This document shows, in pieces, positions 2,772 to 41,840 of a stretch of 64,000 bases of DNA. Positions within the stretch are counted from its first letter, which is position 1, and every line of letters starts with the position of its first letter. The notes under the pieces were generated by a model. The model made no database searches. It was not told where the DNA came from and saw only the letters and a program-made list of their open reading frames with translations. The DNA comes from Actinomycetota bacterium (GTDB lineage: Bacteria > Actinomycetota > Thermoleophilia > RBG-16-64-13), in assembly GCA_018830645.1 (NCBI GenBank), contig JAHJSA010000089.1, forward strand, positions 1-64,000. Reading direction: 5' to 3'. The position numbers and the translations under genes were made by a program.

Positions 2772-3467
2772 TCACCCCCGCTCGGCGCCGAAGGTCTCGA
2801 TAATGGACACGCCCTGCGACGTTCCGATGCGGGCCGCGCCTGCGTTGATCATCATCTCGGCGTCGTCGGCGGTGCGAATGCCGCCGGCGGCTTTCACTCC
2901 CACGTTCTCCGACAGCAGATCGCGGAAGAGTTCCACGTCTTTCGCCGTGGCCCCGCCCGGGCCCTTGCCCGTCGAAGTCTTGATGAAGTCGGCCCCCGAG
3001 TCTTCGATGATCTTGCAGGCCAGCCGCTTGAGCTTCTCGTCGAGATAGCACGCCTCGACGATCACCTTCACCAGCACCAGCCCCCGCCCGGCGTTCACGC
3101 TCTTCATGCGGACGGAACGCACGAGGCCGGCCAGCTCGTCGCGGACGTAGCGGAAGTCGCCGGACAGCATCGCGGGGATGTTCATCACGACGTCGAGTTC
3201 GTCCGCGCCCGCGGCCACGGCGTTCTCGGCAGACATGATCTTCGCCCGCTGGGTGTCGGCGCCGTAGGGGAAGGAGATCACCGTGCCCACCTTGACATCG
3301 CGACCCCGCACCAGCTTCTTGGCGTGGGGAACGAAGTACGGGAACACGCACACCGAGGCAAAATGGTGCTCGCCGGCATCGAGGCAGAGCTTCTCCACAT
3401 CGGCTAGGGTTGCCGTTGGATCGAGAAGCGTGCTATCGATGGTCTTCGCCAGTTCTTCGACTCTCAC
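2772..3467 (-). CDS. deoC: Deoxyribose-phosphate aldolase
   Basis: This class I aldolase cleaves 2-deoxyribose-5-phosphate to glyceraldehyde-3-phosphate and acetaldehyde in deoxynucleoside catabolism. The TIM barrel shows the Schiff-base lysine in FIKTSTGK, the catalytic aspartate in ELDVVMN, and the second lysine in VKAAGGIRT. An upstream extension to 3515 is possible. I start at GTG 3467 because a GAGGG ribosome site precedes it and the family begins near MRVEELAKTID, giving 231 residues, close to the usual length. A 183-bp gap to era suggests separate or attenuated expression. Confidence 0.94.
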   Translation of the reverse strand: MRVEELAKTIDSTLLDPTATLADVEKLCLDAGEHHFASVCVFPYFVPHAKKLVRGRDVKVGTVISFPYGADTQRAKIMSAENAVAAGADELDVVMNIPAMLSGDFRYVRDELAGLVRSVRMKSVNAGRGLVLVKVIVEACYLDEKLKRLACKIIEDSGADFIKTSTGKGPGGATAKDVELFRDLLSENVGVKAAGGIRTADDAEMMINAGAARIGTSQGVSIIETFGAERG

Positions 3468-3629
3468 GTGCCCTCCCTCTTGGCAGGGTAAAGGTTCAGT
3501 TGTCCGGCATCTCACTTGTCCCGCGTCCAGCCGTCGTCACCGGGACGGGGCATACATGATACACCCCGGTGCAAGTGCCCCGGCGGCGTCCCGCCGTTCA
3601 AGCGTCGGCTCGACCGTCTTCAGACCCGC

Positions 3630-3648
3630 CCCTCCCGCGCCGGGAGGG
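3630..3648 (-). terminator. Hairpin after era (terminator-like, no U-tract)
   Basis: A perfect 7-bp stem CCCTCCC/GGGAGGG with a 5-nt loop lies two bases downstream of the era stop. No run of T follows on the minus strand, so it may stabilise the mRNA 3' end or slow polymerase rather than terminate strongly. Confidence 0.4.
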
Positions 3649-3650
3649 AG

Positions 3651-4673
3651 TCAGAGCCCCAGACCATCCAGCATGCGACCGTCCCGGCGCCAATGCTTGC
3701 GCACCTTGACCACGAGATCGAGGTACACGCGAGAGCCGAGCAGCCACTCGATCTCCTTGCGCGCCTCCACGCCCACCTGTTTGATGACGGCGCCACCTCG
3801 GCCCAATACGATTGGCTTCTGGGAGTCCCGCTCCACGTAGATCGCCGCGCGGATGTAGAGAAGGTCGCTCTCTTCGCGGGGCACCATTTCGAGCACCTCC
3901 ACGGCCAGTGCGTGAGGGATCTCCTCCTCCATGACCGCAATCAGCTTCTCCCGGATGAACTCGGCCGCCAACGCCTCTTCCGGTTGATCGGTGACGACCC
4001 CAGGGGGGAAGTAGCGCGGACCCTCGGGCAGAACGGCCACCAACCGCTCCATGAGTTCCGGCACGCCGTCGCCCTGCAGCGCGCTCACCCTTCGGATTTC
4101 CGCACCCGGCACGAGTTCGGCGATCTCCTCCTCAAGCCGGCCCTGTCGATCTCGAGGCGCCAGATCGCTCTTGTTGACCGCGACCACCTTCGGCACCGAA
4201 GACATGGCAAGTGCCCGCGCGATGAAGCGATCGCCGCGGCCGAGTCGCTCGCCTCCGTCGAGGAGAAAGAGCACAGCATCGACCTCGGAGATGGTCGTCT
4301 CCACCAGATTCTGCATGCGCTGCGTGAGAGCGTCGCGGGGCTTCTGGAAGCCCGGGATGTCGATCAATACCAGCTGGAATGCGTCCCCGGATAGAACACC
4401 GGCCACGCGATGGCGCGTGGTCTGCGGCTTGCTGGCGGTGATGCTCACCTTTCGCCCCAGCGCGCGGTTCACGAGAGTCGACTTCCCTACGTTGGGCCGT
4501 CCCACGAGCGCGACGAACCCGGAGCGGAAGCCCGCGGGAGTGGAGAACGGGTCGTTCACGGGTGGCGGGGAGGTCTCACGTGGCGGGGAGGTCTCACGTG
4601 GCGGGGAGGTCTCACGTGGCGGGGAGGTCTCACGTGGCGGAGAGGTCTCACGTGGCGGAGAGGCGTCAGGCAT
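3651..4673 (-). CDS. era: GTPase Era with repeat-bearing N-terminal extension
   Basis: Era binds the 3' end of 16S rRNA and promotes 30S maturation. The 340-residue product has G1 GRPNVGKST (residues 58-66), the G3 region DIPGF, G4 NKSD, and a C-terminal KH domain with the GRGGAVIKQVG core. The start is ATG 4673, which overlaps the upstream GNAT stop by 8 bp. This start adds about 45 residues before the GTPase domain, mostly a six-residue unit SPPRET repeated five times. Typical Era is about 300 residues, so this tail is extra and likely disordered. Confidence 0.95.
   Translation of the reverse strand: MPDASPPRETSPPRETSPPRETSPPRETSPPRETSPPPVNDPFSTPAGFRSGFVALVGRPNVGKSTLVNRALGRKVSITASKPQTTRHRVAGVLSGDAFQLVLIDIPGFQKPRDALTQRMQNLVETTISEVDAVLFLLDGGERLGRGDRFIARALAMSSVPKVVAVNKSDLAPRDRQGRLEEEIAELVPGAEIRRVSALQGDGVPELMERLVAVLPEGPRYFPPGVVTDQPEEALAAEFIREKLIAVMEEEIPHALAVEVLEMVPREESDLLYIRAAIYVERDSQKPIVLGRGGAVIKQVGVEARKEIEWLLGSRVYLDLVVKVRKHWRRDGRMLDGLGL
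4564..4668 (-). repeat. 18-bp in-frame tandem repeat in era
   Basis: The unit GGCGGGGAGGTCTCACGT (plus strand) is present in four identical copies, a fifth with one change, and a partial sixth. Because 18 is a multiple of three, it encodes SPPRET repeats and keeps frame. Near-identity of the copies suggests recent slippage or expansion. Confidence 0.9.
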
Positions 4674-5154
4674 GGCGTCCGACCTCGTTCTTCTCGGGGT
4701 CCGAGTCCCACCGCAGCAGATAGCGGTCCTCACCGGGGCCGTAGAAATCGACTATCTCCTCGACGACCCTGAATCCGAAGCTCAGGTAGAGGTCGAGTGC
4801 CGCCCGGTTCGAGGGAGACACCGACATCACGATGCCCGACCCATCCACCCGCAGCACCTCGTCCATGACGCCGCGCAACAGCTCTCGCCCGAACCCTTGA
4901 CCCTGCCAGCCGGGGCGGATATAGAAACCGAAGATCCAGAACGTGCCGGGTTCGTCCCAGGTGCGGAGCAGCTGGCATGAACCCACCACGACGCCGTCCA
5001 CCTGGCCCAGGAACACCGCACCCGCCCGCGACACCACCCCGATATCGAAGGAGCGGAGCCCGGTGTGGCCGAAAGCCTCCTCGTCGTACGCGGCCAACTC
5101 GTCGAGCTCGGCGAGCCTGGGCCTCTCGAGCCGCACCAGTTCGAGGGAACCCAT
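4666..5154 (-). CDS. GNAT-family N-acetyltransferase
   Basis: This 162-residue protein is a GCN5-related acetyltransferase of RimI-like build. It shows the acetyl-CoA binding motif A as YIRPGWQGQGFGRELL (about residues 78-93), with the Q/RxxGxG core, and motif B in the S-P-S-N-R-A-A-L-D-L-Y-x-x-F-G-F stretch. The substrate cannot be read from sequence; RimI-type enzymes acetylate protein N-termini, others act on small molecules. It starts immediately after the cdd stop and overlaps era by 8 bp, so it is translationally coupled into the cluster. Confidence 0.85.
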   Translation of the reverse strand: MGSLELVRLERPRLAELDELAAYDEEAFGHTGLRSFDIGVVSRAGAVFLGQVDGVVVGSCQLLRTWDEPGTFWIFGFYIRPGWQGQGFGRELLRGVMDEVLRVDGSGIVMSVSPSNRAALDLYLSFGFRVVEEIVDFYGPGEDRYLLRWDSDPEKNEVGRHA

Positions 5155-5568
5155 CTAGCCCGTCTCCAGACTGAACGCCAAGGGCAGAAGCTCTCCGATC
5201 GGTGTAGCCCGCCACGCGCCGTCCACGGGGAAGATCACCAGCACCTCTGCGCCGAACTCGGCGAGGAACTGGCGGCACATGCCGCAGGGCGTGAGGGTCG
5301 CCACTCGCTCTTCGGCCGAAGCCACGGCGATCGCCACTACCTGAGTCTCTCCTTCGGCCACCGCCGTGCCCACGGCGTTCCGCTCCGCGCACAGCCCCAC
5401 CGGATAGCTGGAATTCTCCACGTTACAGCCCACGTGCACGCGCCCGCTGCCCCCGAGGACGGCGGCACCCACAGGATATCGCGAATAGGGCACGTACGCT
5501 CGCGCCGCCGCCGCACGTGCGGCCTCGACAAGACGCTTCTGGTCCTCGGTCAATCCCGCCGAGCTCAC
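5155..5568 (-). CDS. cdd: Cytidine deaminase
   Basis: The enzyme deaminates cytidine and deoxycytidine to uridine forms in pyrimidine salvage. It carries the zinc and catalytic signature CNVENSSY...GLCAERNA (Cys-Ala-Glu) and PCGMCRQ (two zinc cysteines), as in the small tetrameric type. I chose GTG 5568, giving 137 residues, because an AAGGGCGG site lies upstream and the family is about 130-140 aa. A longer version from GTG 5631 would overlap the upstream kinase stop and cannot be excluded. Confidence 0.92.
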   Translation of the reverse strand: MSSAGLTEDQKRLVEAARAAAARAYVPYSRYPVGAAVLGGSGRVHVGCNVENSSYPVGLCAERNAVGTAVAEGETQVVAIAVASAEERVATLTPCGMCRQFLAEFGAEVLVIFPVDGAWRATPIGELLPLAFSLETG

Positions 5569-5621
5569 ATCAGACCGCCCTTCTCCGACTCCATCTTCGC
5601 CGTCACCACGCGTTCCAGCCC

Positions 5622-6356
5622 TTAGAACCACAGCTGGAACACGACGGTCACCAGAAGTATGCCCAGTATTCCGCCAAGAACCACCTCAAGGGTGTCGTGG
5701 ATGCCCGCCTGCACGCGCGTCTGCGCGGTGAGCAGGGCCATCAACAGGGCAACCACGCTCACGAGCACACCGTATGGTTGTCCAACCGAAAGGAAGGTGA
5801 CCGCAGTCCAGCCGCCGAACGCCACGGCGGCGTGGCCCGACGGAAGCCCACCAGATAAGGGTCGCCCTCGGCCCATGGCTGCCTTGAGTACGATCACCAG
5901 CAGCACCGTCACCAGAAGAGCGATGAAGGTAAGGTGGGTGGGGGACCGGCGCACGCTCGAGAGCACGTTCTCCGTGAGGTGCGCCGCCTCGTCCGCGAAC
6001 ACGAGATACGCCACCACGATGGAGTTCACGGCGGCTACGAGCACCGCTCCGGCCGCGACGTCCTTGGCTATCTTCGCTTTCGGATCGAACGAACTCGTCA
6101 CCATGTCGATGGTGGCCTCTATCGCCGTGTTCAGCATCTCGGCGATCATGACGAACGCGATCGCCACCAGCACCGCGATCAACTCGAGCCGAGTGATGTC
6201 GAAGAACAGGCTCCCGAGGAGCACGAGCACCGCGAGGGACACGTGTATGCGCATATTCCTCTGATGTCGGAACACGTGCACAAGCCCCTCGAAGGCATGG
6301 TTGAAACTCTGGAGCAGCGTGCCTCCCTGCCGACCCGACGGGTCCACAGAGTTCAC
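5622..6356 (-). CDS. Fused DgkA-type lipid kinase and PAP2 phosphatase
   Basis: The 244-residue membrane protein joins two domains. Residues 10-115 match the integral-membrane diacylglycerol/undecaprenol kinase family, with the hallmark AEMLNTAIEATIDMV and following acidic/lysine motif. Residues about 135-244 match PAP2 lipid phosphatases: K-x-x-x-GRGRP, the PSGH motif, and R-x5-H-x3-E in place of the commoner final Asp. About seven membrane segments are visible. Likely substrates are undecaprenol or its phosphates, inferred from the families. The GTG start overlaps the ybeY stop as GTGA, giving tight coupling. Confidence 0.88.
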   Translation of the reverse strand: MNSVDPSGRQGGTLLQSFNHAFEGLVHVFRHQRNMRIHVSLAVLVLLGSLFFDITRLELIAVLVAIAFVMIAEMLNTAIEATIDMVTSSFDPKAKIAKDVAAGAVLVAAVNSIVVAYLVFADEAAHLTENVLSSVRRSPTHLTFIALLVTVLLVIVLKAAMGRGRPLSGGLPSGHAAVAFGGWTAVTFLSVGQPYGVLVSVVALLMALLTAQTRVQAGIHDTLEVVLGGILGILLVTVVFQLWF

Positions 6357-40826: not shown

Positions 40827-41840
40827 TCATCGGTGCGCCTTCTCGAGCACCGCGTGCACGAACCTCTCCTTGCCTGAGAGATCACGTTCCACGACCACGT
40901 TCCCGAAGCCCGCCTCGCTCATGAGTGCCGCCACAGCCGGCGCCTGCGACTCTCCCACCTCCAAGAACAGGGCGCCGCCGGGACGCAACACGGTCGCCGC
41001 CTGAGGCAGTAGACGACGGATCACGTCGAGCCCGTCGTCGCCGGCGAGCAGCGCCCCGCCGGGCTCGTGGTCTTTCACGTCTGGCTCCAGAGCCGCGTAC
41101 TCCGACTCGGACACGTACGGCAGGTTGGCCACGACCGCCAGGAGGCTCCCCTGCGCCACACCCTCCAGCAGATCGCCCCGCCGGAGTTCCACCAGTTCCT
41201 CCAGGGCCAGCGCCGCGCGGTTCTCTCGGGCTACTTCGAGGGCATCCTCCGAGACATCGACAGCGAGCACGCTCGTGCCCGTCTCATGGGCCAGGCTGAG
41301 GGCTATCGCCCCGCTCCCGGTGCCGACGTCTGCGACCACGGGACCGACATCTGGGGGCCGCGCCGGCACGGGGCCGGCACCTGGGGGAGGCGAAGGCGCG
41401 TGCGCGGGATCCGGCACGCGCGCAGGATCCGTGGGCCGCGCCGGCAGATGCGCGGAATCCGTGGGCCGCGCCGGCAGATGCGCCTCGGCACGGAGCCAGC
41501 CCACGACCAGGTCGACGAGTTCCTCGGTCTCGGGTCTGGGTATCAGCACGGCCGGCGACACCCGCAGCGTGAGGTACCGGAACGAAGCCCGTCCCAAGAT
41601 GTAGGCCACCGGCTCGCGCCGCGCGCGGCGGGCGACGAGTTCCCGGTACTCATCCACCTCTTCCGAGGTGAGCGGGCGGTCGTGCTGCGTGTAGAGGTGC
41701 ACTCGACCCACAGCGAGCACCTCCGCGAGGAGCAGCTCAGCGTCGAGGCGAGGCGAAGACGAGCCGCGCTCCGCGAGGTAGCGAGCCGATACCTCCAACA
41801 ACTCCGCGATGTGCCAGGTTCGCATCGAGGCGGAGGCCAC
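40827..41840 (-). CDS. prmC: Release factor glutamine methyltransferase, with repeat linker
   Basis: PrmC methylates the GGQ glutamine of RF1/RF2. The 337-residue protein has the N-terminal helical domain (about 1-95) and the SAM motif VVADVGTGSGAIALSLA. The substrate-binding motif is NLPY where PrmC normally has NPPY. Between the two domains lies a 45-residue Pro/Ala-rich linker with a 10-residue unit AHLPARPTDS repeated, which explains the excess over the usual ~280 residues. GTG 41840 begins 2 bp after prfA; ATG 41825 is an alternative start with better ribosome-site spacing. Confidence 0.92.
   Translation of the reverse strand: MASASMRTWHIAELLEVSARYLAERGSSSPRLDAELLLAEVLAVGRVHLYTQHDRPLTSEEVDEYRELVARRARREPVAYILGRASFRYLTLRVSPAVLIPRPETEELVDLVVGWLRAEAHLPARPTDSAHLPARPTDPARVPDPAHAPSPPPGAGPVPARPPDVGPVVADVGTGSGAIALSLAHETGTSVLAVDVSEDALEVARENRAALALEELVELRRGDLLEGVAQGSLLAVVANLPYVSESEYAALEPDVKDHEPGGALLAGDDGLDVIRRLLPQAATVLRPGGALFLEVGESQAPAVAALMSEAGFGNVVVERDLSGKERFVHAVLEKAHR
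41423..41483 (-). repeat. 30-bp in-frame repeat in the prmC linker
   Basis: GTGGGCCGCGCCGGCAGATG (first 20 bases) plus adjoining bases recurs with 30-bp spacing at 41431 and 41461. It encodes 10-residue units rich in Pro and Ala. The flanking 41340-41422 region is similar but degenerate. Confidence 0.8.

Follow-up and report, generated by a model that had tools for sequence, protein, structure and literature searches.

A probable in-frame expansion of an 18-bp repeat just inside era, and the apparent absence of era from a sister clade

The window (the whole stretch of 64,000 nucleotides that was analysed) carries the gene order HD-domain protein, ybeY, dgk/PAP2, cdd, a GNAT-type acetyltransferase gene (GNAT below), era, deoC and recO, with guaB facing this set; the coordinates of the features discussed are collected in Table 1. 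ybeY, cdd, diacylglycerol kinase and recO also appear among the era neighbours listed in the Figure 1 legend of PMC10582724, and in this respect the locus is like those summarized there. The Era translation scores 330.4 bits with model NF000908 (cut-off 237) and 246.8 bits with TIGR00436 (cut-off 116.25), and these matches span the GTPase and KH region. GRPNVGKS, NKSD and GRGG are all present in the translation and in the alignment; GRPNVGKS is the P-loop and GRGG belongs to the KH domain.

Table 1. Features at the era locus, in window coordinates
Feature	Position	Strand	Basis or remark
era, GTPase Era, 340 aa from ATG 4673	3651..4673 (stop codon included)	minus	NF000908, TIGR00436
GNAT-type acetyltransferase gene, upstream of era	4666..5154	minus	sub-cut-off RimI/other acetyltransferase matches; synteny
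Candidate era start, 8-nt overlap with the GNAT stop, ATGCCTGA	4666..4673	minus	same kind in 5/9 family loci
SPPRET array, six tandem 18-bp units	4560..4667	minus	TRF, unit listing, comparison with the same-genus genome
GTG past the repeats, alternative start without the tail	4557..4559	minus	weaker, badly placed ribosome-binding match

The initial annotation had placed near-identical 18-bp units at the N-terminus of Era, and this proved correct, with five SPPRET copies lying in six units. The strongest tandem repeat that TRF finds in the 64-kb window has an 18-bp period and lies at 4562-4663 (5.7 copies, 98% match, score 190), and listing the units from 4667 down to 4560 gives GACGCCTCTCCGCCACGT, GAGACCTCTCCGCCACGT, three copies of GAGACCTCCCCGCCACGT and GAGACCTCCCCGCCACCC. 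The 108 bp, in units of six codons, translate as DASPPR-(ETSPPR)x4-ETSPPP, which contains SPPRET exactly five times, and the sole variation among these five copies is at one synonymous site (TCT or TCC, both Ser). The best array in any of 40 sequences resampled from the window with a second-order Markov model scored 68, as against the observed 190, and the SPPRET array is far above chance. The runner-up array of the window is a 30-bp tandem repeat at 41420-41483 (2.1 copies, 94%, score 114). Two antisense open reading frames, at 4051-4980 and 4410-4772 on the plus strand, cross the SPPRET array.

A genome scan for the 18-bp unit at up to 3 mismatches gave 14 matches, six within the array and eight elsewhere, all eight with 3 mismatches; a reversed control gave five, so a dispersed repeat element was ruled out, the off-array matches being at about the control level. 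Other repeats were seen at era in other genomes. In G057 the end of era, stop codon included, lies within a perfect 33-bp tandem duplication (L017, 1462-1527) whose second copy is past the stop. In G049 (L011, 1330-1427) a 12-bp repeat lies directly upstream of era, near the end of what is, judged by eye, a probable cdd gene, and in another frame it reads as Ala/Pro/Asp repeats (DAAPDAAPDAAP).

The array lies inside the era reading frame, but is it translated? We compared the nine era loci of the family (the window and L003-L010), each of which has a GNAT gene upstream. The 8-nt overlap of era start and GNAT stop is found in the window, L003, L005, L006 and L008, and in L005, L006 and L008 the overlapping start is the sole candidate at least 8 codons from the P-loop. 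One of the three candidates at L004 has a 4-nt overlap, L007 has a GTG 1 nt past the GNAT stop plus ATGs 47 and 92 nt before that stop, and L009 has as its sole candidate a GTG 3 nt past the GNAT stop; at L010 there are five candidates. Because the 8-nt overlap recurs in five of the nine loci, ATG 4673 is probably used and the repeat translated, as the initial annotation had claimed; the support for this is comparative, and to it may be added a better ribosome-binding match at ATG 4673 (-7.1 kcal/mol) than at GTG 4559 (-4.0, about 16 nt upstream of the GTG). GTG 4559 would initiate 106 nt past the GNAT stop, and on these comparisons it is unlikely to be the start. The ribosome-binding criterion is a weak one, since the match at the equivalent ATG of the same-genus genome G001 reaches only -4.6 and the values for seven other window genes span -2.1 to -7.2. 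Nor would a start at GTG 4559 be absurd, because G001 has a GTG at the matching position and the sole candidate GTG of L009 is 19 codons from its P-loop, which is the same distance as that of GTG 4559.

Within the genus, two genomes only were compared, this one and G001. Between flanks that are collinear with those of the window array, G001 has one unit, GAGACCCCTGTTCCGCCC, so that its sequence here is 90 bp shorter and its Era is 310 residues long; the start of the tail and a VNDPFSTP stretch behind it are common to both. From GTG 4559 onwards, 22 of the 303 codons of the two era genes (stop included) specify different residues and 49 of 172 fourfold sites are different (dN 0.040, dS 0.385), and judged from sequence this is a normal GTPase gene under purifying selection with its domains conserved. 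By our own rough arithmetic, SPPRET copies as old as the split of the two species should show about five synonymous changes. Every one of the 29 era loci examined in relatives has a possible start 8-35 codons ahead of the P-loop, with candidates further out at seven and none further out at 22; in the window, counted from ATG 4673, there are 57 codons before the P-loop. The short Era N-terminus is thus probably the older form, and growth of the array most likely followed the split of the two species. Expansion in this lineage is the simplest reading because the copies are near-identical and short N-termini are possible in the relatives, with the direction of change resting on one close and several distant relatives since only two genomes of the genus were compared. 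The initial annotation had called the tandem expansion recent, which agrees with the one unit in the sole same-genus genome compared versus six here.

The explanation that we consider probable is a coding minisatellite that grew from a single 18-bp stretch and whose encoded tail is tolerated and has no selected function. A single 18-bp stretch directly after the era start codon would have been duplicated in this lineage, and the duplicate would then have multiplied to six units via replication slippage or unequal recombination, the reading frame being preserved throughout because the unit is six codons; Era would in this way have gained a 30-residue disordered SPPRET tail ahead of an otherwise normal protein. 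We infer the slippage mechanism, expansion as opposed to contraction, translation of the tail and its neutrality. Coding minisatellites (VNTRs) are a recognised class in bacterial genes. Like them, the era array consists of near-identical, in-frame 18-bp tandem units, above chance and with a length divisible by three, whose copy number differs between two related species (6 and 1); it differs from them in sitting in a housekeeping ribosome-assembly gene. Our literature search found no paper on an Era with an N-terminal extension and none on repeats in an essential gene or with ribosome-assembly GTPases, and nothing that matched this case was among the 10 of 19 papers listed for repeats at protein ends.

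Might the tail have a function, altering the meeting of Era with the pre-30S particle or some other partner, with repeat number under selection? A tail of this length is unusual among solved bacterial Eras: the alignments of seven such chains begin at chain residues 5-9 and at residues 49-51 of the window's Era, and the solved proteins have 4-8 residues ahead of the common region where this one has 48. The features at either end of the tail that are common to G001 could also be read in this way. However, the sole close relative has one unit, and the tail (charge-balanced, proline-rich and 30 residues longer than in the single-unit state) is predicted to be disordered, since in an AlphaFold2 model whose input alignment had six rows (mean pLDDT 68, with parts of the folded domains uncertain too) pLDDT is below 50 at residues 1-11 and 13-39 and secondary structure is absent before residue 50. 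According to PMC10582724, Era fusions are exceedingly uncommon, with steric constraints as the probable cause, and this also speaks against a functional tail, though it is not decisive for a flexible one. None of the analyses made gave a sign of a tuned pre-30S interaction, and we regard a functional tail as improbable.

An effect on expression has similarly little chance of being the explanation. Polyproline stalls ribosomes and EF-P relieves the stall, so that the PP motifs and final PPP could hold up the ribosome near the beginning of era, depending on EF-P; if GTG 4559 were the true start, the array would lengthen the leader. There are six PP-containing motifs, one PPP among them, and an EF-P gene is present in the genome, and because EF-P is encoded the proline stretches should be readable by the ribosome. 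Against such an effect, RNA structure at 4500-4760 is no better than that of shuffled sequences (z = 0.40; 134 of 200 shuffles fold equally well or better), no match to a sigma-70 promoter or a terminator was found in 3400-5700, translation most likely begins upstream of the array, and G001 has one unit only. A G-quadruplex was rejected: a pattern of three-G runs was found on neither strand, and the two-G pattern, which begins 4 times within 150 nt on the plus strand, stays inside the spread seen over the window (mean 0.88, maximum 13 per 150 nt). The genome is a draft in 112 contigs and an assembly or binning artefact could in principle have produced the array, but the array is only 108 bp long, its copies are not all identical, its flanks are collinear with G001 and the frame is intact, which makes an artefact extremely unlikely.

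The initial annotation treated Era as essential, and this premise does not hold across the family. The Era model TIGR00436 finds Era in nine of 18 family genomes, and the other nine (G002, G004, G006, G007, G009, G011, G015, G016 and G017) have no match at E <= 1e-30; the same nine carriers come out when the window's own Era is the query. Thirteen family genomes have a completeness of 90% or more and a contamination of no more than 5%, and seven of these 13 have Era. At E <= 0.001 the era-less genomes have only weaker GTPase-domain matches, which we take for Der and its kin. In the class as a whole, 215 of 229 genomes at least 90% complete have an Era match at E <= 1e-30 (214 of them above the cut-off), as judged from the best 10 candidates per genome, with all candidates scored for the family and for G027, G042 and G052. 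The remaining 14 comprise seven from the sister clade, three from one genus of another family and four that are scattered. At least one of the scattered four, G039, is a gap, because Era fragments were found in it. The three from one genus (G027, G042 and G052; genus g22, family f6) are 95-98% complete and their congeners G037, G047 and G064 have Era, making a second era loss in that genus possible.

A midpoint-rooted tree for 16 genomes, based on the HD, YbeY and Dgk proteins, has the eight era-less genomes included in it on one side of a 100/100 branch. The operon was read through in five of the nine era-less genomes (G002, G004, G006, G009 and G011), and there HD, ybeY, dgk, GNAT, deoC and recO stand in the window's order with GNAT followed directly by deoC (stretches L077, L078, L079, L080 and L082); this count leaves out G007, whose contig ends in GNAT, G015 and G016, which were read as far as GNAT, and G017, in which the YbeY match is absent. 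A search of these five stretches with Era gave a best E of 0.57 and nothing between GNAT and deoC. The absence of era from this sister clade within the family probably goes back to one loss, with the neighbouring genes still in order where they were read. The gene cdd is not well kept in the family, since the window's Cdd matches only one of the five era-less operons (G011) and also has no match in the era-bearing loci L007-L010, which reach that far. Between era and deoC the window, like G001, contains GTGTATCATGTAT near 3545-3565 on the minus strand, and the five era-less stretches have the similar GTGTATGATA ahead of deoC; judged by eye, these are perhaps a deoC promoter.

Are other 30S factors missing as well? 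RbfA is present in all nine era-less genomes and YbeY in eight of them, while RsgA (TIGR00157) is found in one (G007). Among the nine Era-bearing family genomes RsgA is above the cut-off in seven, the exceptions being G003 and G013 (the latter 64% complete). The RsgA model passes its cut-off in only 8 of 14 control genomes, so the absence of RsgA is less remarkable than that of Era, and these searches make a co-loss of the two 30S GTPase genes, era and rsgA, possible. The era-less genomes are about 2.2-3.3 Mb in size. Passages of PMC10582724 name extremely genome-reduced groups as having lost era, and a figure legend there gives several clades with patchy presence; listings returned for era and gene loss in Actinobacteria, or for era in Coriobacteriia, held nothing that matched this case.

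Joining the two halves of these results, one might suppose that the SPPRET array changes rapidly and, by fixing how long a disordered arm Era carries, adjusts 30S maturation or Era output from one close species to the next, and that this happens where dependence on Era is loose, a sister clade in the family having lost the gene; we think this very unlikely. On the minisatellite explanation that we prefer, the array illustrates neatly how an in-frame repeat can expand at one end of a conserved housekeeping protein. The era-less sister clade is the weightier outcome and, if it is real, 30S assembly without Era and RsgA would be open to study outside strongly reduced genomes.
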